62,090 bases of DNA from Candidatus Altimarinota bacterium (lineage in GTDB: Bacteria; Patescibacteriota; Gracilibacteria; BD1-5; UBA6164), in assembly GCA_013368515.1 (NCBI GenBank), contig JABWCI010000007.1, forward strand, positions 1 to 62,090. The letters run 5' to 3'. A model generated the notes under the pieces. The model did no database searches, was not told where the DNA came from, and was given only the letters and a program-made list of their open reading frames with translations. Below are positions 29,623 to 62,090 of this stretch, piece after piece. A program made the position numbers and the translations under genes. The stretch's first letter is position 1. Every line of letters starts with the position of its first letter.

Positions 29623-32600
29623 ATGATTTATACAAAATTTCAAAAATTTATATCAAGTTTTTTGATTTTTTCATTACTTTTTGGTATTACCTTTAGAGTA
29701 CCATTTTTTGATTTCTTAGCATCTGCCTCTTGAGATGATTATTATGATATAGTTTCTATACTTGTAGATGAGAAAACATATTCTGATACATCTTCTGAAA
29801 TAAAAAGATATAGTAAAGACATAACTAATGTTTTAGAAAATACAAAGGTTGTTGTTTTGCCTTTTCCTGATGATGCTAGTACTTATGATATAGCATCAAT
29901 AAATGAATCTTTATATTATGAATGATATAAATGACTTTCTGATGTAGATTTTGAATCTAGATTAGTTTGAACAGTTTTAATTTGAAATATTCAAATTCCA
30001 ACAGTTCATAAAAATAATGAGGTATCTAAAACGATACTTCCTTATACTGATTTTGATGATAAATCATATATATACAATACTGATACACAAAAATATGAAT
30101 ATAACAAGGATAATGTTACTTGAGTTAGATCTGAAATTTGGCATTGAGTTATTTCTCCTAACACATGAAATTATGATACTGACATAGATGCAATAAAGGA
30201 TTATTTTGATAAGAATCATGATTATTATACTTGAAAATGATTTTATGAACTGGAGAATAATTCTACAAATTGAAATCAAAATGAATGATATAGTGATACT
30301 TATGAACCTTATGTTTTTTATTTTGATAGTTTCAGAGAGTCAAAGGCATTAAATTATAACTCTTATGTTTGATACGAGTTATACCTATCAAATAAAGAAG
30401 ATATAATATATAATAGATATACTAAAGAATTAGCTGATAAATTGAAGCAAGAATTACTTTGAAGTTCTACTGAATCTTTAGGTAGTTTAGCAAAAAAAAT
30501 AGACCCAACTTTAAGTGATGATTTAATAAATAGTTTAGATAATAATCTTGAATGAGTTCCTGATATTCAAACTAGAACAATTATAAATGAAACTGTAAAA
30601 AAATTTATTCAGGTTATATCTCCATGAGCTATATCTGATATGAGAAAAAATGTTTATAATGCATGAAGATATAATTATGAGGATAGAGTAAATGTTGATT
30701 TTATTCCATATCTTATAAGTGTATTAGATATTGTTAATGATGAATTAATAAAAGAAATTACAGATGATTTTGAATCTAAAATGGATTGATTAATTAAATC
30801 AATTCCTTGATCTATAGTTATTCCAGTTAGTTATAAATTTAAAAATAGCCAAGTTGAAGAAGTATATGAAAATTACTTATTTTGAAAAAAGGCTTCAGAT
30901 ATAACATACGCATGAGATTGTAGTTTTTATAGAGGTTCAACTATAAATTGATGACAATTAGTTGAGGCTAATAGAGGGACAAATATTTATAATATAGAGC
31001 CAGACAAGAATACTTTCTCTGTTTATGGTAATATATGTTTTTCAAATCTTCAATCTTGAAAATCTTTAGATTGATTGTGGTGAAGAAATTCTCCTTTTAA
31101 TCTTAATCAAACTGAATCTGCTAAATGAAATTTAGTTCTTAATCAATCAGACTATAAATGAGCAATAGTTCCATTATATGATATCAAGTGATCTAAGGAA
31201 ATTTATGACTCATCTAAAAATCCTAGTATATCAATGTGTTATAATACTAATCTTATTTTAGCAGATAGATATGAGTATTGAGTATGAAATTGAGAAACTT
31301 CAACATGGGAAAATACATATAAATTACCATCTTATCAAACAAGTACTCTTAGAACATCTGTTCCTTGATGGCAATGTATAACTGATACAAACTCAACAGA
31401 TAAATATTATCCTTTTAGCTTAAAATTCGAACAACATGTTTCAACTTTGACCGCTGGATATTGTGAGAAAAACTCTATTTATCTTGATGGTGTTTTAGTT
31501 AAAGAAGTTGCGTACAATGAAGCTTGTTGATGAGATTCTTGTGAATGTTCTTGAACTAATACAAGAGATATAGTAAATAATATAGAGGATATATTAGATG
31601 GTTTGTTGGTTGATGAAAGCTATGATATAGAAGAAAGTAGCTGGATAATAAATAGATATGACTATAAATCTATTTCTGATTCTCATATGTTTCATAAATC
31701 TCCTACTTCAGATGAATTAAAGGCACAGATTGAATCTATGGTTACACCATCTTTAGCTGTAGATAAAGATAGATATATAGATTTTCTTTTATCAAATTGA
31801 TCATTTGCTAAAATAAATTATCCATATTTATTTAGAATTAAATTTGATGATATATCAGATTTAACAATAGATAAAGTTTCTATTGAGTTAGATAGAGTTT
31901 TAGATCAAAAAAGTCAAGAGTTTAGAAATATAACTTGATTATCTCTAGACTTAAAAACATATTTAAAACAAAAATGAAGTAAAAAATTATATTTAGATGG
32001 AGAAGAAAAGGATATTAGTTATTATGATATGCTTGTATTTGCAATCTATTGGAATAATTTGTCTTCAGTTTCTGCAAAATATTGATTTGTTTTTGAGAAT
32101 TATTTATCAAGTCAATTAAATACTCAAAATTCATTTTTCTTGCCAAAATGAAGAAGTCAATATGAAATTGCATATTTAGGTTCTTCTTGAAATGCATCTA
32201 ATATGTATATATGACTTGATCCTAACTCTAAGTCTACAAATCCATATTCTGACATAATATCTAAAAATCAAGATATTTCTACAAAAATATTATGATTAAA
32301 TATTAATTGATCAGAAACTGTTACAAATGAAGCATTATTTAAGTGTGCACCTCCAGAATGAGTTCCTATTTGGGAATGGATTCCTGCAATTATGTGTCGG
32401 TTATGAGATATGCTTCCTCCTACAATAAAAATATCTGATTGAGCTTGTTGACCTTCTCTTTTATCTTCTGAGGAAAAAGAAGAATTTGAAATTTGTAATT
32501 GAGATGTAAATAAAAATTGAGTTAATGATTGTGTAGAAAGTAAATTACCAGATTGAAACATACTTCTTGAATCTGATTCAAATAAATATTCATACAATAA

Positions 32601-35600
32601 AAATGCTCAATTGATTGCAAGCATTAAATGAAGTGATTGAAAAACTTTAACATATATAAATTGAACAAATATTAATTTTGAACTTGTTAGAGTAGAAGCA
32701 AAAATTGATGAGAATAAAGATATATCTGAAACAAATAAAAAAATTATATATGATTCATCTATAAAAGATGAAGTATCTATTAAAAATTTAAATAATTATT
32801 TATACTTTAAAGATTTTACTGTACCAACTTCACTATGAGTTTCAAAGTATTGAATTAATTTTAAAAATAAAGATATTAATGTATATTTAAAAGCCAAAAT
32901 AAATATAAGTGATTCAAATAAGTCTCAAATATTATCTAAAGAATCAAATTTATTAAAAATAGAAGTTAGAGGTGAATCTTTGACAACTACTACATATAAT
33001 TTAAATGATAGCTCAAATTTAAATGTAAATCAATGAAATCAATCTGTTTTAGCAAGTGATAATCAAAATATTTTCTTAATAGATTGAAATAGTCAAAATA
33101 TAGATAGTATTTTAAGTACTATAAATAATAATTCTAAATCAAATGAGAAATTAGTTTTTAAAATAGATAATTTATCTAAAATAGGGACATCTTTACCTAA
33201 TTCTTACCCATTAATTGTTGAATTATATTCATGAAATAATTTAGTTAAAAGCTCAAGTATTGATAATATTAATTGATTTGTTTCTTTATTTTCAATTTCT
33301 AAATCTTGAACTTATAATTTAAAAATTAAAGATAATTCTTGAAAGTTTGTTGAAAAAAGATTTGAAGTAATGCCATTATCTCCTCATAAATTAGATATAA
33401 ACTTATGAGCAAATTATTTACAAACTAATTGAAGTATTTCTACAAACTATGTAACTATTCTTGATAAATATAATAATCCAGTTTCTTGAAATTTCTATGA
33501 TTTGAAAATGGAAGTTTCAGATAATAATTTAGTTTTTGTAGATAACTGAAAAGATAATTTTTCAACTTCAACATATGAATGATATAAAATATTTAGATTA
33601 AAGTCGCTTAATAAATTATGAGAGAGTAATTTAAAAGTATCTTTATATGATTTAGATGGAAATGTTTTACTCTCAAATACAAAAAAAATCACTGTCTTAG
33701 ATTCTTTTAGTTTAAATACTAAATCTTTAATGGGTGATATTAAAATATGAGGATGAACTTACAAATATCAAATAGAAGTCAGAGATAGTTTATGAAAAAT
33801 TATTAATAATTTGAACTCTAGAGTTTATATGAAGGTAAATTCTAGTTATTTAGATTTACAAAAACCTTATTTTGATATTATAGATTGAGTTGCTATTGTT
33901 GAATTTAAAACAAAAAATTTAGCTTGAAAGAATATACCAATTGAGTTACAAATTGAGTGATTTTGAGAAATTTTTACTAAATCATTAGATATACTTCCAT
34001 GAATCCCAATGAAAATGGATATGGTTGTATCTAAGTCTAAAATTGAAGCTAACGGAGAAGATTATTCTCAAATATGAATTGAACTAAAAGATATATATAA
34101 TAATTTAGTTTTCACTGATAATAGTACAACATTAGATTTAGAAATATTGCCTGAATATAGAAACTTAATAAATTCTACATCATATACTCAGAAAGTAAAA
34201 GATGGTAAGGCTAATTTTAAAATTTATTCTACATTAACTCCATGAATCTGATATTTTAAAATTAAAACTACTCCAACTCTATATGATAATAAATTTTCTA
34301 TAACAGATGATTCATGAACTCTAGATATAAGTTGAGTTTGAGAAGTTGCATGAAAAATTGAAAGCTTTTATGTTTGGAATAAATCAAAAATAGAAAATAA
34401 GTATTATAACTCTATTTATACTACTTTACTTTGATCTAATTATTGAGATATTGATCAGAAAGATTATCTTGCTTGATCACTTATTTTCGAAAAAACAAGT
34501 AAAGCATTAGCTGTTACAAGTATTGTAAATAATCCATATCTTTACAATAATGTATTTTCAGTATGAAAAAATGGAGCATTTACTAAGCTATTTTCTGAAA
34601 GTGATTTATCACAAGATATTGATTTAGATGTAGCATTTAAAAATGACAATTTATATTTAGATGTTTTTAATAACTCTTTAAATACTAAAATTTGAGAAGC
34701 TTATTATATATTTCCAAATGATTCAAATTTGGAAGTTTGTGAAGATGATTTTAATAGTTGTATAAATTATTCTAAATCTGGTATATATTGAAAATCTTTA
34801 GATAGTAATTTTAGTTTTTATGTATCATGATGAAAATTAATATTAAAAGATAATTCAGGTAAAACTTATTTAGAGATTGATAAAAGTTGAAAAATATATA
34901 GAAAATCTAGTCTAGATTTTTTATTAAAAAATTCTAGTTCAAAACATTTGGAAATAACTCTTAGTTCTTGAAATAAAGAAGTAGCTTTATTGTGATTAAA
35001 TTTAGCAAATTGATCAATAAATATTTCAAGAGATATACTAACTTTAGACACTAAAATAAATAGTTCAAAAAATTCAGTATTAATATACATGGATTCTTCA
35101 TTATATTGAACGTATTCAAATTGAAAATGAGAAAATGAATCACTAGTAATATATTATAATGATCCTTTTTGATCTGAAACTTCTTTAAATTGATTTTCTA
35201 AGTGAAACAATTTTTGATATGAAAATTTTGAAAATAATTGAGGTCTTTGATGGTCTAAATGAAATAAAACATTATTAAGTTTTTCTTTTTGAAGAAATGT
35301 ATGAGAATCTCTAAAAGAAAATATGAGTTTTTCATCAATTAATATTTGAGATCCTTTAGTTAGTTTAAAGAAAATTAAAAAACAATTTAATTGAACTAAT
35401 ATTGATAAAAAATTTGATTCAACTATATGAGATTTATTATCTAATGAATCATTAATTGATACTTATAAGATTTTTGATTATAATAATGATTCTAGAGTTG
35501 ATGTTTTGTTAGTAAAAAATGATTGATATATAAAATTATTAGAAAATGTAAATACTAGTTCTAGATTCAGGGATATGTGAGATTTGGCTTATATAATTGA

Positions 35601-38600
35601 TTTATGAAATTATGAATTATTAAAGACTTGAGATTTTACATGAGACTGATATGATGATATATTTTTTGTAGGGGAAGATTGAGATCCTTATTTACTAAAC
35701 AACATAAATAAAGATTTTTCTAGACTTTCTTTAAAAAATAAATTTGATTTAAAATGAAGGATAATTAGGGCAGAGAGTTTTGATATGGATAATGATTGAA
35801 TTACAGATATAGTTACTCTTGATGACGAAGGTTCAATAAATATCTTTTATTGAAATTTGGGTTCTTCAAATCCTACATTTACTAAACTAAATCTTAGTGA
35901 TGATTATGGTGTTAAATTGAGTAATCAGATAAGAAAAGATTCATGATTTATATATTTTGATTGATTATATCAAATTGATTCTAGATATGATAATACTGAT
36001 TTAATTAATTCTAATAAAGATTATTTAGATAATTTAAGAAATTCTTTATGAGCTTGATCAGAATCTGTTAGTAGAGAAATAGTTGATACTGAATTAGCAA
36101 ATAGTTTTATTTTTGAACAAATTTCATATTCTAAAAATAATAATGTAGATATCGATTGACTAAATTGATTGATAAATCTTCCATCAACTATAGAGCAAAC
36201 AACTTTTATTAAATCTGAATATTCTGATGCTGCATGAATAAAATATGAAAAAATTTATACAGATAGAAATTGATGATTTTTGAAATCTTGAGATATAGTA
36301 GATATTCAAATAAACATTACTAATAAATCATGATGAACTAAAAGAAATATAGCTTATATAGAAGACTCTCTAGAGTATTTTAATGTAGATTTTTCTAGTG
36401 TGACTAACTCAAAAAATCTTCCTATAAAAATACCAAATAATAGTTATGACTTTTTATTTGATGGGTTTTCTTTATGAATCAATGAAAATTTTTCTATAAG
36501 TTATAGTTGAGAAGTTAAGCCAATCAAATATTCATATATGCAAGTATGATTATTTGAAAAATGAGAAGCTGGAGATGATTTATATTGAGATGTTCTATTA
36601 AAAGATAGTCCAGAAAATTGTTGAGATCCAGTTGAAATATTTAGATCAGTTTCTACAAGATTGTATAGTAAATGATTAAAAAATCCTTCTTGTGATGATA
36701 GTACTTTACCTGAGGAATTATCTAAAAATACTCTTGATTCAGATTGAGATGGTATACCAGATTATATAGAAAATCTTACAACAGATAATGATGCAAGAAA
36801 AGAATATTCTCAAGATGTTTTAAATAATTTGTTTACTGATTCAGATTGAGATGGTATACCAGATGATGAGGATAATTTTAATTCATCAAATTGATTTCAA
36901 GATGCTTTATCTAGTGTTGATTCATGACTTGATAATATACAAAATTTTTTAAATTGATTAAGTTGTTGATTTAATAATGGTTCTTGTATTTCTATGCCTT
37001 TAAATTGGGCTCCTTTAGCTCCATGAAATGATCCTACTTTCATGTGATATCCTATTTGAGATTGATTATATGTTTGAGAATGACTTCCAGTTTTTTCGAG
37101 TTTAACTTGATTACAAACTTCTTGTGGAACTTCTCCATGTTGTCTTCCAACTGTTTGGCCTGTTAGTCCTCTTGCATATGTTCCAGGTCCAACTTGTTGA
37201 CCACCATCAGCATGATGATACTTATGAACATGGGCACCAACTAATACTTTCAGATTATTTGTTACTCCTACTTTAACTTGATGAATTTGAATGGCGGCTT
37301 GTTTTTGATGACCAGCTATTGTTGCAGGTTATTCTAATATGCCTTGAATTTCACCTCTTTTCCCATGATGAAATTGTATAGTTATTGCAAAACCTTTATT
37401 GAAGTGTAGTAATGATTGATCAGATTGAGCTCCAGAATCAACATGATATCCAGTTTACTGATCTGATTTTTGAGTAATAAATTGAAATTGTAGTATAGAT
37501 GTTAATCAATCTCTAGACTCAAATTATGCAAACAACTATTATAATTATATAACTGGAAAATGAAGTTACTCTAGTTTATGATCTATAAATGAAGCTGTTT
37601 CTGATCACAATTCTAATATTTCTTGACCTTTATTTACAATTTGAGCTGAGTCATGAACACCAGTTTCAGTTACTTTAGATACTGAGTCTTGAAATTTTGA
37701 CTTTTCAGATATAACAAAAATTGCTAAACAAAGAATACAAGCTTTTCCTTGATTTTTAATGAATTGGGTTACTAGGCAAATAGAGGAGATTGTTAATAAG
37801 TTAACTGATTTTCCAACTTTGTTTATCATATTACCTGATTTTTCTTGAATATATGATACTGATTTAGATTGGCAAACGAATAAAGCTAATTGGCTGAAGA
37901 ATAGTTGAAATAAAGATGCTATAAGTAATCAAACAATAGATATTGATACTTCTGGTATAGATAATGAGACTGTAAAATGATACGCTGAAAAGGCTAAACA
38001 ATATAATTCTTGAATAAAAGAAGCTTATGAATTTATAGGTTCTCTTCCTTTAGTAAAAATAGAGCAATCTCAAGTAGAAATTTCACTTCCATGGATTTCA
38101 TTATCAGAGATAGATAAAACAATTTTTACTCGGAAGTCTACTTTAGAATCTTGGAAAGCTGAAGTTTCTAGAGCTAGTAACTCTTGGACTTTATGAGCTA
38201 CTTGTAATTTTTCAGACCCACAAGCTCAACAAAGATGTTTAGATAATAATTCAGCTTGAGAGAAATTATTGATTGATTCAAATGCATTGGTAAACTCATT
38301 AGAGTCTAACTTAGAGGTATTAAAAAGTTATAAAGAAATACCAGAGCAAATAAATAAACTTTTAAATACTAAAGAAAAATACTTAGAGCAAATATTATGT
38401 AATGTCGAGACTATTTCATATATTTTATGATGACGGATATGAAAAAATGGTGAAAGGTTTAAAGCATGGGTTGAATTATTTATACTTATAAAAGCAATTT
38501 TAAAATCTTGGCAATTATTAATAGATGTATTTGTTGAATATGAACAAGAATGTAAAGAGTGTAAAAATGAAAGACAAGATTTAATGACTTTTGTATTTGA

Positions 38601-41600
38601 ATTAATAAGTATGATTATTCCTGAAATTCCAGTTATTGAATTTCCTAAATGGCCAGATATTATTGTTGATTTACATAATATTAGAGCATGAATAAATGTT
38701 TTATTGCCAGAATTCCGTGTAACTTCAAGACCAATTTTATTACCTGAATTACCTAATTTATATTTACCAGATGCTCCAAATGTTAATATAGTACTACCAG
38801 ATTTACCAGTACTACCAGAATTAGTAATTCCAGAATTACCTGATTTACCGACTTTACCAACTGTAGAATTACCAGATTTACCACCACCACCGACTTTACC
38901 TAAAATGTTATCTGCTTTAGAAGCAATTTTAGATATCTTAAAATTAGTAACTAAAGCAATGTGTATTCTCAAATCTTCACCATTTATTCCAGAATGGAGA
39001 GCCTGAGATCAAATTGCATTTTTAACTGAAAGAAATTGATACTTACCTACAGATTTTTTAAGTTTAAGTTCTCCTCATTTTTCTTTTCCTTGGATTGATG
39101 CTATAAAAGTTACTACTTATGTAAATCTTGAATTTGAGGTTGATTTTATTACTGAATTAGCAAGACAAGTTGCAATGCCTATAAATGAATTTACTTCAGA
39201 CTTTACAAGCTTGTTTGATATAGATATAGCTGATTTAGATTTTAGATATGTTACTCCTTCAGAGATAAACGTTAATTTGTGAAACTTAAATGATAGAGAT
39301 AAAAAAATAGTAAATCTAGTTTCTTCTATTTTGATTAAGAATCTTATTCATTGATATGATTATATACAAAAAAATAAGGATATAACTATTTCAAATGAAG
39401 AGTTTAAAAAAGAAATTTGATTAGCACTTTCAAGTGAGTCTATTTCTTGAGATCCAAGGTTTGATGAACTAAGAGATTTATGGAATAATGTAAATAAATA
39501 TACATATTCTTGAGAAGATAAACTTATTCAAGAACTTAAAGACAATAATTTTAATAAATTTGAATCTTTAAAAGATATTATTAATACAGAAATTATTAAA
39601 AATAAAGAATTTAAAAATAAGTTAAATGATTCTATTAATAATCCAATAAAGAAAGTATCTTTTAATAATAGTTCATCTGTTGATTATTATAATTCAATTT
39701 TAGATAAATATAACTCTAAGACTTTTGAGTCAACTTCTAATTTATTAAACTTCAAACAAGAAGATTCATATTGATGAGAATTAAAAGAGATATGAAACTC
39801 TTTACTAGAAAATATAAATACATCTTTATCAAATTATAGTAATTCTACATCTAAAAATACATTATTGTTATCAGCAAATACTACTTGAACTTCTCAATCA
39901 ACAAATAATTCATGAGAACAAAATTCTTGTACTTATTGATGAAAATCTAATTGAGATTATTCATATGTTTATGAATGAATATATATACTTGAATGAAATA
40001 GATCATATAGATTATTCGATTATAAAGATGAGTTATTATGAAATGAAACTACGCAAATTATAGATTTTGATTTAGATGGAGATGAAGATTTATTATATTT
40101 TGCTAATAATAAACTTTATTTAAAAGAAAGTTTAGATAAAAAATCTGATAAATCATTTTTAAATGAAAACCCTATAATTTTGGAATCTAATGATAATAGG
40201 TTTCTAAACTCAGATAATTATATAAGTTCTGTAAATAATTTAAGAAGTACTAATTGATCTAGTTGAATTATTGATTTATCATTTTCTTGAAAAAAATCTA
40301 TTAATAACTATAGAGTTTCATTTTATACTGTGATTGATAAATTTTTAAATGAAAATAATACAAATTATTCACCAGTTTATAGAAAAAAATCAATAATTGA
40401 TTGAATATCTTGAGCTTGAGAAATAAATTTATTATCTGACACTGATTTATATAAAGAGTATAAAGATTTGGTATTTTTAGATAAAGTTTGAAATCTAAAT
40501 TGAGTTCAAATTGAAACAGACGAGTTTATAAATATTAGAAATGATATTAATAATTGAAATGTAGTTTCTGTTAATAATTGAACTAAAATATATTCTTGAG
40601 ATAATTCAATGGTTTTAAAATATACTATATGAAGTTCATGAGAAATAAAGAGTATAATTGTACCTAAAAACAGACATATAGAAGTAAAAAATACTTTAAA
40701 TATTGTTTGAATAAATTGAGATTGATTTATTAGAAAGGGGAATAAAATGATATACTCTTGAGTAGATATAAGAAAATTAATATGAAAACCTTTATTATTT
40801 TGAACTAAAATTTCATATATTTGAAATAATTCAGATGTTAGAGATGATAGTTATGTTGAATTATCTTATTATGATTGAAGTATTCAGTCAATAGATTTTC
40901 AATATATATCTGATTGGGAACTATATAATTTATGATATAACTCTCAAAAATATTTAATATCTACTCCTAGAAATAATGATTTATATTATGCAAAAGTTTC
41001 TTCATTTAAAAATGACATAAATTCTACAATGAGTAATCAAGTATTATTGTCTCCACAAATCCATTCTGATTCAAACTCTCCAGATATAAATTTATCTAAG
41101 ATCAGAGTACCAGTTTATCAAAAACAAAGAATAGATTTAACTTCTTATATATATGAAGATACATGAATAAAAGAAGCATATATTGATTTTGATTTATCAG
41201 TTGATAGTTCTTGAGATTGAAATACTAAGAATGATAATGATTCTTCAAACATGAATAATTTAAATTTTATTATAGTTGACTCTAAAATTTATGTTGATGT
41301 TTGACCTTTTAATCAATTATATGATAAGAAAATATGATTAGTTATAAGGGATATAAATAATAATATCTGATATAAAGAAATAAAATTTGAAATTTATCCA
41401 CCTATTCCAAATATAAATGATTATATTGATGAAGATTTATTTTGATCTCTTGATGAAAAGTTGGATGATGAGCCTGTTAATGTTTATAGAGTAAGATGAT
41501 GAATGGTTTCAAAATTATCTACAAAAAATGGAGACAATTCAACACTTACTAATGATTGAGATTTTACTTTTAAAGTTTGAGAAAACTCATCTTGAATTAA

Positions 41601-42174
41601 AGTTTTTAAAAGTTGAGTCAATATAGCAAACATAAATGAAAAAACTTGAAAAATAGATATTGTTACTAATGATGGATTGTTAGATGAATTAGAAAATATT
41701 ATTTTAGATAAATGATCTTGAAATTATACTATTTCAGTATTAACATCTAATGATACTTCTAATAAACTAGTTTATCCAAAAATTATATTAAAAGATACCT
41801 ATAATGAAGTTTTTTATGAGACTATAAAAGTAGATTGAAAAAGTAAAATTAACATTGTTAATAATTATTCTAATTTAGATAATAGTTGATTGTTTTTCAG
41901 ATTAGTTAATGATGCAAATTATTCTTATTATTTATTACCTGATAATGCAACTTATAATGCTTGAAGCCTAGTTGTTTATAGAAGTAATAATCAAGAAAAA
42001 GAACCACTTTTTACAGTGTTTACAGATTGAAGAATAACTTCTCTAAACTCTAATTATATTTTAAAATATAGTAGTTATAACGATTATGTTAGTCTTATCT
42101 TACATGATAAAGTTTTCAATAGAGATATTGCTTCTGTTTTATATAAAATAGATAGTGATTATATAATAAAATAA
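29623..42174 (+). CDS. Giant secreted/surface protein, about 4183 residues
   Basis: One uninterrupted frame with hundreds of in-frame UGA glycines and no UAA/UAG, checked codon by codon. N-terminal signal segment ISSFLIFSLLFGITFRVPFF. The bulk is rich in Asn, Ser, Asp, Lys and Tyr, as in large beta-rich adhesins. Recognisable pieces: FDMDNDGITDIV (~35787) and DFDLDGDEDLLYF (~40064), like FG-GAP/VCBS propeller repeats; two DSDGDGIPD calcium loops of the thrombospondin type-3 kind (~36735 and ~36838); a Cys/Gly/Pro-rich stretch (~36960-37420); coiled, Trp-containing helices; and a proline repeat (38704-38905). No clear membrane anchor at the C-terminus. Probable role: attachment to a host or export of a large matrix protein (inference). 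Monocistronic, bounded by terminators on both sides. Confidence 0.93.
38704..38910 (+). repeat. Proline-rich PELP/DLP repeat inside the giant protein
   Basis: Codes for short units such as LPELPNLYLPD, LPDLPVLPELVIPELPDLP and LPDLPPPPTLP: Pro-X-Leu-Pro every three to six residues, flanked by helical segments. Likely an extended stalk or spacer. Confidence 0.8.
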
Positions 42175-55769: not shown

Positions 55770-55809
55770 ATAAGTGTCAATGATTTTGACACTTATGCCT
55801 TTTTTTATT
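55770..55809 (+). terminator. Terminator after yidC
   Basis: ATAAGTGTCAA / TTGACACTTAT stem followed by GCCTTTTTTTATT. Confidence 0.88.
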
Positions 55810-55847: not shown

Positions 55848-56531
55848 ATGGTTAAAAAATTATTAGCTAGTTCTGTTGCAATTGCTTTAATAAGCTCAAT
55901 TTCAACTGTTTCAGCTGCTACCACAGAAATAGAATGTTCTACTGATAGCGTTTTTGCAGAATATTCTTGTAATCAATGTTTCGATGGTTGAGAAAAATCA
56001 ACTTGATCATTTATAGGATTATTAACTGATATTTGGTCTAATAATTCTGCAAATGATAAAATAATGTATAAAGAACAACAAGAAATGCCAGAAATGGTTA
56101 ATCTTAATACTTCTAAAGTAGAATGGTCTCAAACTCCAGATTCAAAAGACTTCTGGGAATATACTCCAGAATTTGAAGCTTTATTTTCAACTGAACAAGA
56201 CTGATATGTTTTAAAAGCTGGTCAAAGTGTTACTTGGTTAAAATCTAAATTAAGTTATGCATTTAAATTAGATAGGAATGATGCAGTTAAATGAGAAAAT
56301 ATTTGATTACTTGTTTATCCTGTTTTAAGTCATACACTTTTAGATAATTGAGAATTAGGTATGAGTAACACACCTCATAATGAATGTGTTTTATTTAAAT
56401 CTGCTGCTTGACAATCACCAGTTGTAGAAACTCCTAAGACTCTTCCTCAAACTTGACCTGCTGAATTTTTCTTACTTATGATATTGGCAATGATTTTAGG
56501 TTTTGGTATTGTTAGATTTAAAAATAGTTAA
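55848..56531 (+). CDS. Secreted protein with LPQTG-type sorting signal
   Basis: 227 residues. Signal peptide LASSVAIALISSISTVSAA, a Cys-containing exposed part (CSTDSVFAEYSCNQC), and at the C-terminus ETPKTLPQTGPAEFFLLMIL then AMILGFGIVRFKNS: LPxTG motif, hydrophobic stretch and short positive tail, i.e. a class-A-like sortase substrate. No sortase gene in the window. Other exposed sequence is not recognised. First gene of the right-hand surface module, with its own terminator. Confidence 0.85.
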
Positions 56532-56670: not shown

Positions 56671-59600
56671 ATGTTACACATTGTAAAACAATATAAAAAA
56701 ATGTTACTTTCATTTTTAGAAACTAGTTTTGAGCAAGATAACTATTCAAGAGATTCTAAGTTACCTCTTACTCAAGAAGTTATTAAATCTACTAAGACTT
56801 TAGAAGATATGGTTAAAGTTATTAATAATTCAGAAATTGATATTAATAATTCAGAACATAAAAATTTTTTAAAAAGTTTTATTATGGAAATTGCTAAAAA
56901 ATCATGAAATCAATCAACTATAGAGGAAACAGATGTTAATGATAGTTTATTTTCAAATGAAAGATATGCTTTTTCTAATGTTGTTAGATTAATAAAATCA
57001 CTTGATCAGTATAAAACTGTTGATTGAAAAATAAAATGATTCTCACAAGCTGAAATAAAAATGTTGAATGATTTTATATGAGAAAGTTGAGCTGTTGTTA
57101 ATGAGGCTGCAAAGTGAGTAGCTGAAGTTAAAGAAGATGTAGTTAAAACTTGAGAAAAAAATAGTGAAGTTACAAATTCTGTTATGTGAATAGATGTTTC
57201 AAATACAACAAGAGCAGAAATGATTACTGAGGTTAATGTAAATTCTTTAGAAAAATTATTATCTAAACTATCATTTACTGAATTATGAACATTGATAAAT
57301 GAAATTTCAACTAAATCATTATGAGGAAAAAATCCTAGAAATTTTAAATATACATGGTATTGACTATGAAATAATTATTCTTGATTATCAGATATATTAG
57401 AAAAAGCTTGATATTCTGTTAAATGAGTTTTGGATAATAAAGAAGCAGCATGAGTAGTTTTATCTCTTATAGATGCTTATGATACTCAAGAAAAATTAAA
57501 TAAATCTTCGAATTTTAAAGATAAATTAAAAGTAATTTTTGATTATAATAAAGATTGATTATTAGATGATAAAGTACATTTTTATACTAAAGAAAAACAA
57601 TTTTTTAGTGCAGTTAAAACAGAAATACAATTTAATAATTTATTAAAAAATCTAGGTTATTCTGATAGAAGTGTTTTTGATCTTTCATTTGATAATAATT
57701 ATTATTCTGCAAGAGAAAGTTTTAAAACTAGATTGGCAACTATATTAAGTATTTCTAATTTTATAAGTCCATCAGAAATGCTTAAAAATCCAAATGCTTT
57801 AATAGAATTTAATAATGATAAGATTAAAGCAGAAAATGCATTATCTATAGAGTTAGATAAAAATGATAAAACAAAAAATTTACCAAAAGAAACAAAGGAT
57901 TTAATAAAACTTCAAGCTGCATGAATTTTAGTTTGATCTACTCGTTGATTATGAGTCTCATTTGATATTACATGATTAACAAAAGATTTAATTGATTCTT
58001 TACAAATTGGTATTATAAATGGAGTTCCATGAATATGAATTGCTAAAAATTTAGTTAAAAATGAGAATGGTACATTTAGAGTAGATGCTTCAGTTGTTAA
58101 TTTAATTCCTATCTTATCTGCATCATGAGTTGTTAAAAAAGCAGAATATGATGAGTTTAAGAAATTTTTTCCTACAGAAATAGATTCAAAAACACAAGTT
58201 ACTTTAGCATGATGAATTTCTACATTAGCATCTTCGGTAATAATTGATTTTTCTAAAGCAGATGAAACAACTAAATTGTGAATTGAAAATGCTAAAAATA
58301 AAATGAAACCATTATTAGATAAAATATTTTCAGAAATTGAATCATGAACTAGTTTTGATAAATCATCTTTTTCTTGAGAAGAATCAAATAGATATATTTA
58401 TGATCAATTATCTGATTTATATAAATCTAATTGAGGTAAACCAGAATTTTCTAGATTTTTAAAAGAATGAGCTTTAAAAAATTATGAAAGGGCATTATAT
58501 CAAAATGCAGATGGTTTAAATTATGCTTGAATTAGTGTTTGATTAATTTTCTTGGTAAAATATCTACCAATTCCATTTGTATGAGCATCATTTGATTATA
58601 ATAAAACAAATTGGGTAAATAAAAGTAGAGTTTCTCCTACTAATTCTCCTTCAAAAACACAAGATGACAAATCAAATTCTACATGAGATGGTTCAGTTAA
58701 ATGAAATAGAGAAGTAAAAGAAAATCTTAGATCTTCTTATGAAAATTGAACTGATATTTGAAGTAAATTATCATCATATGAGAGTGCATTTTCTTTTAGA
58801 ACTCGTTATAATAAATGAGCTGAATCTCTTATGTCTCCATCAGGTACTTTAGAAACAAGATGGAAATGATTAATTCAATTATCTCAAGTAGTAAAAGCAT
58901 TAAAAGATGTAAAATTAAATGACTTTTTAAAAACAGTAAAAACTGATAATGAAAAATGGTTGGTTATATCAACTATTTCACAATATATGAAAAAAGCAAA
59001 TGATTTTAATAATTGAGATAAAAAATCATGGAATGAAAATGTAGATTCTTATATTTCTAAAGATAAATCAAGAAGAAAAGCATTTAATACATTAATGTGA
59101 CCTAATTTAGATTCAGAAGCTTACGCTTATTATAAAAAACTTAGTGAATGAAAATGAAGAATTACAAAAGAAACTAAATTATGAGTATGATTTGATGCTA
59201 CTTCTAGTATAAATGTAGAATGAAGTAAGGTTGTAAAATGAATGGATACACTATATACTAATCTTAGTATATTAGCAGTTGATGGAAAACCATTATTAAT
59301 ACCTATTACTGATAAAACAAAAATAGATGCATTTAAAGAAAAAATTAAATCTTCAAAAAATGTTTCTGAAGATGTAAAATCAAATTTGATTACTTGAATT
59401 GAAAATTGAACAATTGAGTTGAATTTTTATAAAGATCCAGAAGGTTTTGATGATAGAATTTTACCTATTATCAAAAAGAAAATACCATTAGATTCACCAA
59501 CTCCTGAACCTGGTAAACCTAGTGACCAACCAGTGGATGAAATTGAAGTATTTCAACCTGAACACTCATCAATTAAAATTTGATTATGATTTACATGAGA

Positions 59601-59925
59601 GAAAGAGTTAAAAGACAAACCTGAAAATCAAGACAAACCTGAAAATCAAGATAAAGTACCAAGTCAAGACAAACCTGAAAATCAAGATAAAGTACCAAGT
59701 CAAGATAAAGTACCAAGTCAAGATAAAGTACCAAGTCAAGATAAAGTACCAAGTCAAGATAAAGTACCAAGTCAAGATAAAAGTCAAGATAAAGTACCAA
59801 GTCAAGATAAAGTACCAAGTCAAGATAAAGTACCAAGTCAAGATTGAGGTAGTGAACCTTGAATTGGATGATGAGGTTGAGTTGTTCCTTCAACTCCTGA
59901 AACTCCATCTTTATGAGAGAGTTAA
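56671..59925 (+). CDS. Large repeat-tailed protein of unknown function
   Basis: 1084 residues. No N-terminal signal peptide seen from ATG 56671 (MLHIVKQYKKMLLSFL); the frame stays open upstream without a better start. Helical N-terminal part, an EF-hand-like FDYNKDGLLDD (~57538), two Gly/Ala-rich hydrophobic patches (LAGGISTLASSVII and YAGISVGLIFLVKYLPIPFV) and a soluble domain (~58700-59500). The last 120 residues are 13 short repeats (59614-59844) followed by a Gly-rich end GIGGGGGVVPSTPETPSL. No family recognised. Followed after 21 bases by the ATP-grasp gene, so the two may form one unit. Confidence 0.72.
59614..59844 (+). repeat. Tandem 18-base coding repeat (DKVPSQ / DKPENQ)
   Basis: Codes for 13 units: DKPENQ twice, DKVPSQ, DKPENQ, five DKVPSQ, one shortened DKSQ, three DKVPSQ. 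All are in frame with the 1084-residue gene. The near-identical third positions point to recent expansion. The minus-strand ORFs over it (LDLVLY repeats) are shadows of this repeat. Confidence 0.93.
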
Positions 59926-59946
59926 TTATTTTAATAAGTATTTATA

Positions 59947-61068
59947 ATGAAAAAATTTATATATTTTTTAGATATTTGAATAACAGAGAAAGATTATGAT
60001 TTTTTTCTTGATAAAATTAAATTGATTTCAAATGATATATCAGTTAAAGATATTATAAATACTTATTATTATAAACTAGGTGAAGATAATACTTGAAGAA
60101 TCAATAAGTCTTTCTTCTTAGAGGCAATGACTTTTATAGATTACTTAAATAGTGAATTAGAAATTGAGTTAAAAGATATTCAATGGGTATATAAAGAAAA
60201 TTTTTTACTATTAAACAAAGATTTTTATGTTTTTAATGAAAAATTTTTTCAAAAAATAGATATTAAGAATACTTATTTTGTAAATATAAGATATCCATGG
60301 TTTAGTCATATATTTAGAATATTTAATCAATTATGATGAAATACTTTATGAATAAATCATAGATGGGATTGGAATTATAATGATAAAATATTTTGTATAT
60401 CTAAATTATATAAATGAAATTTAAAAGAATATGTTTGAGATATTATTATACCTTTTATAAATACTTTTTCTAAAGAAAATATAAATATTTTATATAATTT
60501 TATTTACGATAATTTTTGAACTAAAAAAATAGTTCTTAAAAAAAGTTTTTGAGAAATGTGAAATTGAGTTAAGGCAATTGATTTAAATATAACAAATAAT
60601 GAAAAATTTTACGATGCACTAAAAAATAAATATTGTAATATCTATAATCAATTAGATGCTTTTTATATAGTACCATTTTATGAAATAATTACCGAAAATA
60701 GAATTTATTATTTATACAATAAAGAAACAGATATATTGGAAATACATAGTGTAAAACAAAAAAATACAAATTTTGAATGAGTATTTGAGTTAGATAGTTT
60801 TGAACTATATAAGTGAATAGAGGTTTATTGGTCTTATATTAATAAAAATGAAATTATTAGTAATAAGATTTTACTTAATTATATAAAAAAAATAGTAAAA
60901 TTAATTTGATATGAAACTGGGGTTTTAGAATTGTGAATACTTTCTAAAAAAGATTTTAGATTTTTTGAAGTAAATCCTTATTGATGAACATTAATGTTTA
61001 AAGAAGATCAAGATGACATGTATAATTTTTATTATAACATGTATAAAAATAAATTTTTAAATTATTAG
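59947..61068 (+). CDS. ATP-grasp enzyme of unknown specificity
   Basis: 373 residues. ATP-grasp signs: KKIVLKKSFGEMGNGVKAID (Gly-rich loop over ATP, about residues 200-220), FYIVPFYEIITENRIYYLYN (adenine-contacting Glu and substrate arm) and GVLELGILSKKDFRFFEVNP then YGGTLMF (metal-binding E and N of the EVNP signature). It lacks the domain pairs of carboxylases or D-Ala ligases. Substrate unknown; ATP-grasp ligases join a carboxylate to an amine, thiol or hydroxyl. Lies between the Lys/Asp/Ser repeat protein and surface genes. Confidence 0.75.
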
Positions 61069-61077
61069 AAATATATT

Positions 61078-61269
61078 ATGAAAAAAATAATTATTATTTT
61101 AATTACAATACTATTGACATTATCTATTATTTATTTATATTATTTAAAAATAGAAGAGAATAAAAAAGTATCTGATGATATTACACAAGATATTTCTCTG
61201 AATAAAAATATATGATGATGAATTTGAGTTGAATCTTCTCAATTAAAAAAAGATTATTGAGAAGATTAA
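61078..61269 (+). CDS. Small single-pass membrane peptide
   Basis: 63 residues, too short for usual ORF callers. One membrane helix (KKIIIILITILLTLSIIYLY), then a short Lys/Asp/Glu tail with GGGIGVESSQ. It starts 9 bases after the ATP-grasp stop and precedes the Cys-rich protein by 22 bases. Function unknown. Confidence 0.6.
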
Positions 61270-61291
61270 TTTATCTTATAAAAAATATTTT

Positions 61292-62090
61292 ATGTTAAAA
61301 AAAATATTATTTTCTGTTATTTTCATTTTTTTCTGTAATACTTCATATGCTATAGATTTTTCTGCTATATGAAATATTGAAACTTCATGTATATGAGCAA
61401 ATGTAAATTCTACTATTTATATTCCAAATTGACAAAATTCTCTTACAGAGACTGTTTGGGATTCTTTTTGGCATCCAAATGATAGATTTATAGCTAATAA
61501 TTGAACTTTAGTAAAATTATGGCAATCAGAAAATAATTTAGTAACTTGATGTAATTCCTCTAGTGATTGGATTAAAGCAAGTGATATTGCTCCTTGAAAT
61601 AATGAGAAAATTATTGCACTTTATTCAAGGTGTACATTTAATAAACCAAAAAATGTTAATAATAAGACATTACAATTTGTTTTTAATATTAGACATTGAG
61701 CTATATGATGATGAAGTACAACTCAAACTAGATATTATTATCCAAGATCTTGATGGTATAATAATCCTTCTACTAGAGAATCTAAGACTATAAATAATTA
61801 TTTTGTATCTAATTATCAAGTTCATGAAAATGAATGTTTAAATGTGACTTTGGCTTGGTGTTGAGATTGAGTTTTAGATTCTTCTTACTGAGAAACTTGT
61901 GACCCTAGCGATCCTAATAAAACTTGATGGTGAGCAGGAGGTTGTAATAATTCATGTCAACCAATTAATACTACAACTCCAAGTTGTACAAATTTAACAG
62001 CAAGTCCAACAACATGAGTAAATAGTTTAACAAGTACAATGACATGTACATGAGCAAATGCTAGTACATATACTATTAACTGTTGAAATG
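61292..62090 (+). CDS. Secreted cysteine-rich protein with DUF4215/Myxo-repeat-like motif (3' partial)
   Basis: At least 266 residues, cut by the window end. Signal peptide KKILFSVIFIFFCNTSYAID, a domain with YYYPRSGWYNNPSTR, then CGDGVLDSSYGETCDPSDPN and GGCNNSCQPI, the CGDG...E.CD...C...C pattern of Cys-rich DUF4215 surface repeats, and Thr/Ser/Cys-rich units thereafter. Probable exported surface protein. The remaining part lies outside the window. Confidence 0.82.

Follow-up and report, generated by a model that had tools for sequence, protein, structure and literature searches.

An ATP-grasp enzyme encoded beside acidic repeat tails of large, probably cell-wall-located proteins in Gracilibacteria: a putative tail ligase

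What does an ATP-grasp enzyme do directly behind the gene of a 1084-residue protein that carries a repeat of Lys, Asp, Ser and Glu in its C-terminal part? The gene pair is situated near the end of the window, i.e., the whole analysed stretch of 62,090 nucleotides from a Candidatus Altimarinota bacterium. A sequence-only reading had proposed a graspetide-like cross-linking system for positions 59614-61068, which comprise the repeat and the ATP-grasp gene. According to our best reading, the enzyme is a dedicated tail ligase that would activate Asp/Glu carboxylates, with the tail as its presumed substrate. If the three explanations in which the enzyme acts on the tail are taken jointly, tail modification of some kind appears very probable. 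As to its chemistry, the formation of side-chain cross-links, as catalysed by graspetide ligases, is our leading but tentative proposal, with a probability of roughly 0.42.

Since many conserved Gly codons are TGA, the window was translated with NCBI table 25 (TGA=Gly), the code of Gracilibacteria and Absconditabacteria. Table 4 (TGA=Trp) was rejected because it puts Trp at conserved Gly positions of RNase J and other proteins, and under table 11 both the repeat protein and the ATP-grasp frame are interrupted. With table 25, the repeat-tailed protein, termed P2, is encoded without internal stop by positions 56671-59922 and the ATP-grasp enzyme by positions 59947-61065. The stop codon of P2 ends at 59925, and the distance of 21 bases to the downstream ATG noted earlier is correct. 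The gene order is pyrH, rpmH, rnpA, yidC (names assigned by sequence recognition), a hairpin, an LPxTG-like gene, P2, the ATP-grasp gene, a 63-aa gene and the gene of a large secreted protein (Table 1). Judged by its consensus, the hairpin is likely the upstream boundary of the transcription unit; between P2 and the ATP-grasp gene no terminator-like hairpin was found. The LPxTG-like gene adjoins yidC, and a sortase is encoded in the genome of the window (G000). The largest gene of the window is an open frame of 4183 aa at 29623-42174 (table 4/25). The D-Ala-D-Ala ligase model PF07478 has no match in G000 and is present in 24 of the 29 genomes searched.

Table 1. Features at the 3' end of the window.
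Feature	Position	Strand	Remark
Terminator-like hairpin 3' of yidC	55770..55796	+	Consensus match only
227-aa secreted protein, LPxTG-like C-terminus (LPQTG, hydrophobic stretch, basic end)	55848..56531	+	Syntenic anchor
P2, 1084 aa	56671..59925	+	Body, residues 1-981; probable substrate
Repeat tail of P2, residues 982-1057	59612..59844	+	TRF array; proposed modification site
ATP-grasp enzyme, 373 aa	59947..61068	+	C-terminal ATP-grasp domain, residues ~139-373
63-aa protein, hydrophobic N-terminal segment, membrane-anchored or lipoprotein-like	61078..61269	+	Corresponds to small lipoprotein-like genes of relatives
Large secreted repeat protein, N-terminal signal peptide	61292..62090	+	Downstream anchor; continues past contig end

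The tail of P2 consists of exactly 13 units (3 DKPENQ, 9 DKVPSQ and 1 DKSQ) and starts at residue 982. The earlier count of 13 is right, but the protein does not end there, as 27 further residues rich in Gly and Pro, DGGSEPGIGGGGGVVPSTPETPSLGES, follow the last unit. The self-similarity of the tail amounts to 0.90, whereas 2000 shuffles of the last 130 residues of P2 reach 0.375 at most. A 105-aa ORF opposite the repeat (59591-59908) is considered a by-product of the latter. For P2 of the window no family was recognised, and its structure model is poor (pLDDT 52). Homologues of P2 contain the peptidoglycan-binding domain PG_binding_1 (1.2e-8 in G044 and 4.4e-6 in G019), which points to a likely location of P2 at the cell wall. 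The earlier description as a surface protein gains ground from these domains but not from a classical signal peptide, since many P2 N-termini carry an MLHI-x-xQYKK-like sequence instead. An enzyme-specific leader motif was not seen by eye, neither in the N-termini nor before the tail, and the strand preceding the tail also occurs in species without the enzyme.

Relatives of the enzyme are scarce. In 99 genomes, the window's own and those of relatives, it was found in 9. A search with an 11-member alignment through 353 genomes of the class returned as clear matches the same 11 copies from these 9 genomes, all of one family, and outside this family three weak partial matches only. A single-protein search of named genomes gave a match in UBA7396 only. 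Due to the presence of the LPxTG-like gene in 47 out of 48 genomes of the family, by which the locus was traced, the locus could be followed through all 48 genomes and tabulated with or without the enzyme. All 11 clear copies, two of them in each of two genomes, sit in the P2 locus (9 of 48 family genomes); the conserved pairing in relatives, which the sequence-only reading had named as a check, exists, and the association of enzyme and repeat-tailed protein is real. In case of G012, the ATP-grasp gene is situated upstream instead of downstream of the tailed protein, and the locus (L055:7015-9531) also comprises a PIG-L deacetylase and a glycosyltransferase gene. A distant relative of the enzyme (E 4e-10) in G062 of the same order, L173:4765-5850, has a glycosyltransferase and an EamA transporter gene in its vicinity and no adjoining repeat protein.

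The repeat sequences of the enzyme-linked tails differ wholly between species. Next to the DKPENQ/DKVPSQ units of the window these are DKPESQ/DKPASQ/DKTPSQ in G030, EDTPEDSP in G007, EDTPENTP in G034, DKTPDA in G023, KEDK in G042, EGTGT in G045, and the short acidic repeat ETDTDSLE in G012. G039 contains EPNTVPP at its first locus and the units EKSETQEDEKSTTQE and TTQEDENTTTQEGET at its second, where the tail runs to the end of contig G039:C78 and, by an inferred join, continues from the first bases of G039:C97. All ten tails have an acid together with Lys, Ser or Thr in every repeat unit, which would suit internal cross-links of the graspetide type. Extra tail-like ORFs adjoin the enzyme gene in G034 and G039. 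Beside the genes of tailed protein and enzyme, two short ORFs (L050:7159-7560, 133 aa, and L053:1641-1964, 107 aa) retain acidic repeats or segments in which PENT motifs occur; both resemble stand-alone tails and might serve as convenient small substrates.

In loci without the enzyme, tails are mostly short and Gly/Thr-rich (e.g., GGTTGGFG). With a self-similarity cut of 0.7, strongly repetitive tails were observed in 8 of 9 genomes with the enzyme versus 2 of 27 without it (Fisher p 1.3e-5, the genomes being treated as independent though they are related). The ninth enzyme genome, below the cut, is G012, and the two repetitive tails without enzyme are both proline-rich (PPEPPK in G014, PIPIPEP in G038). 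Four genomes, G029, G004, G010, and G040, were left out of these counts because their contigs stop inside or before the tail; the contig of G029 ends in the acidic repeat EKSETEEE, and no enzyme was found in this 81% complete assembly. The last 100 residues contain 18-45 Asp+Glu in the presence of the enzyme versus 4-21 in its absence (Mann-Whitney p 3e-5, ignoring shared ancestry), and Gly is lower in enzyme-linked tails (p 1e-3). Lys+Ser+Thr are not significantly enriched in these tails (p 0.09) and are common in enzyme-less tails too. Asp/Glu are thus the sole residue class enriched, as would be expected if a tail carboxylate is the group activated; composition gives no specific support for an internal nucleophile. 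The contrast between tails with and without the enzyme repeats within five genera (g1, g5, g8, g10, and g13).

Regarding the enzyme itself, single-protein searches of Pfam, NCBIfam, and PDB sequences gave no matches, but its predicted structure (pLDDT 87, pTM 0.85) recognises the fold, so that the earlier ATP-grasp call holds. Structural matches of residues 139-373 are DcsG (Z 13.0), VanG (12.4), ArgX (12.1), LysX (11.8), RimK (11.2), and TTLL11 (10.7), while Foldseek matched PsnB, MdnC, a Chryseobacterium RiPP ligase, and AMdnB with E near 1e-6. Graspetide ligases are absent among the 50 matches listed in the structure comparison with the PDB, which is not evidence against kinship. Due to this mixture of ATP-grasp families, the ranking identifies the fold as ATP-grasp but does not distinguish its kind. 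K147, K198, E250, R252, E328, E341, and N343 are invariant in the 11-member alignment and presumably correspond to the expected catalytic positions of ATP-grasp enzymes. With dN/dS of 0.20 between the window and G030, the enzyme has a full, intact ATP-grasp fold under purifying selection.

As far as profile searches tell, the enzyme constitutes a formally new family outside Pfam/NCBIfam and the curated graspetide models. Its best NCBIfam matches, by model name MvdC and SAV_5884 maturases, are weak (TIGR04185 with E 1.7e-4 in 3 of 11 members, TIGR04187 with E 3.1e-3), and one graspetide maturase model yields 15.1 bits where its cut-off is 425, which places the enzyme outside curated membership. 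In a PDB profile search AMdnB ranked first (0.0019) and MdnB third. Profile-profile comparison scored 51 for graspetide-type enzymes of Patescibacteria, partly on 47 C-terminal columns, 30 for RimK-type enzymes, and 31 for Ddl, with set labels based on model scores and sequence inspection; the graspetide and RimK profiles, with a mutual score of 134, resemble one another far more than either of them resembles this family. RimK and LysX family models have no match in Pfam or NCBIfam with E up to 1, the TTL model PF03133 matches none of the 11 members, and a TTL search in the phylum gave weak partial matches only. Taken together, the sequence leans weakly to graspetide ligases: the kinship proposed by the sequence-only reading is reflected in graspetide maturases, AMdnB, and MdnB as best matches, but these lie far below curated cut-offs. 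Good matches to graspetide maturase models, up to 253 bits, occur at L083-L092 in several other Patescibacteria genomes, L091 and L092 being extended N-terminally by about 300 aa.

In ATP-grasp catalysis, a carboxylate is activated through conversion to an acyl phosphate. We presume that the enzyme acts in the cytosol, with its supply of ATP, and that it would phosphorylate Asp/Glu carboxylates of the tail. The activated carboxylates would then be coupled to Lys, Ser, or Thr in their own repeat or in an adjacent one, resulting in amide or ester cross-links. The tail would become stiffer or protease-resistant, and P2 might subsequently be carried to the cell wall.

The main rival of cross-linking is the addition of free amino acids or a small amine to tail Asp/Glu or to the C-terminus, by which the tail would become branched or recharged instead of cross-linked. 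TTLL enzymes act on tubulin tails, RimK on ribosomal protein S6, and ArgX/LysX on LysW; the substrates of TTLL enzymes are usually disordered acidic tails. Such a reaction needs acids only, and only acids are enriched in the enzyme-linked tails; furthermore, ArgX, LysX, RimK, and TTLL11 are all among the structural matches. On the other hand, the missing matches to RimK, LysX, and TTL models, the lower RimK-type profile score, and one of the G039 tails (G039b), with just one Glu per 7 residues, argue against it. We consider amino-acid addition less likely than cross-linking, which we rate as the most likely chemistry.

Genomic context bears on the question whether the enzyme acts on the tail at all. 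Between the window (59612-61963) and G030 (UBA7396), which belongs to another genus, DNA identity amounts to 76.7%, and the match begins at the repeat; upstream of the repeat, P2 shows no DNA match between the two, and yidC is 67% identical in the DNA comparison. At the protein level, the tail is 76% and the enzyme 72% identical, but the P2 body 26%, compared to approximately 59% within the own genus of each (G000/G002 and G030/G040). In case of G000/G002, tail and enzyme are present in one genome and not in the other. Similarly, G045 and G031 have bodies of 71% identity, and one possesses a repeat tail plus enzyme, the other neither. G002 and G003 of the window's genus carry the small gene within 20 bases downstream of P2 and no enzyme. 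The enzyme gene thus travels with the acidic repeat tail, and hence the enzyme probably modifies it. The functional link, for which the sequence-only reading had relied on position and composition, is backed by the pairing in 9 genomes, the contrast with 27 enzyme-less syntenic loci, and the shared DNA block that starts at the repeat.

Alternatively, the tails may be slippage-prone, wall-spanning repeats on which the enzyme does not act, with neighbouring genes hitch-hiking together. As the shared block extends into the downstream genes, tail and enzyme are not its sole content; repeats without enzyme exist (G014, G038), the type of repeat varies freely from species to species, and relatedness inflates the statistics. 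Nevertheless, enzyme and acidic repeat tail co-occur in seven genera and separate together within genera, and the extra tail-like ORFs next to the enzyme in G034 and G039 retain acidic segments, which renders this explanation improbable. Least probable of all is a covalent attachment of the tail to a peptidoglycan precursor, another protein of the operon or a glycan, by which the tail would be anchored: the peptidoglycan-binding domains of P2 homologues, a locus full of surface proteins, the sortase, the PIG-L/glycosyltransferase gene of the G012 locus, and the glycosyltransferase near the distant relative in G062 are in agreement with it, but P2 is the sole conserved partner of the enzyme, and the neighbours on both sides persist in species without the enzyme.

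Returning to cross-linking, an extended picture can be drawn, in which an enzyme-made, cross-linked repeat tail would decorate a giant cell-wall protein and a tail-plus-enzyme module would be swapped among Gracilibacteria, with a Lys-, Ser-, or Thr-based repeat chemistry varying by species. As a whole this picture is possible, if somewhat doubtful. In the literature we found no report in which, for this group, an ATP-grasp enzyme is associated with a large protein's repeat tail. The locus offers an initial entry point to the surface biology of an uncultured, probably host-dependent bacterial group.

Among known systems, RimK, ArgX/LysX, and TTLL enzymes share the ATP-grasp fold and act on acidic protein tails or carriers, but the present enzyme has no match to their sequence families and scores lower with the RimK-type than with the graspetide-type profile. 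Even if the reaction were glutamylation or another ligation, the locus would represent a bacterial system for the modification of tails, for which natural with/without pairs exist. Adhesins with autocatalytic isopeptide or ester cross-links, e.g., the Mobiluncus adhesin (PMC10619420), are likewise surface proteins with side-chain cross-links, which are only proposed for the tail described here. Their cross-links form enzyme-free inside folded Ig-like domains, whereas this tail looks disordered and is accompanied by a predicted ATP-dependent ligase. Graspetide loci of candidate phyla radiation bacteria, branches 1 and 2 (PMC8939145), resemble the present locus as ATP-grasp loci with rapidly changing precursors in that radiation; their precursors are small and carry a Phhx(1,2)h leader, peptidases are associated with these loci, and Gracilibacteria are not mentioned in that work.

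The graspetide ligases (MdnB/MdnC, AMdnB, PsnB, CdnC, ThfB; TIGR04184/04185/04187) are similar in their ATP-grasp fold, as the best though weak sequence matches, and in the location of their genes next to substrate-like repeats of acid and Ser/Thr/Lys; tandem units are also present in multi-core graspetides, e.g., plesiocin and thuringinin (PMC12291112). They differ in that the present enzyme of ~373 aa has a divergent N-terminal domain and stays far below their curated cut-offs, that a C-terminal tail on a protein of >1000 aa, in which no leader motif was seen, is its putative substrate, and that the locus is devoid of a protease or exporter gene and of a characteristic core motif. ThfB was shown to cyclise engineered proteins (PMC12291112), and therefore cross-linking chemistry on a protein is plausible. 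In the literature found, natural ATP-grasp cross-linking concerns small peptides; if our proposal is true, it would be extended to structural surface proteins, and ligases acting on simple repeats of 4-8 residues would be on offer.
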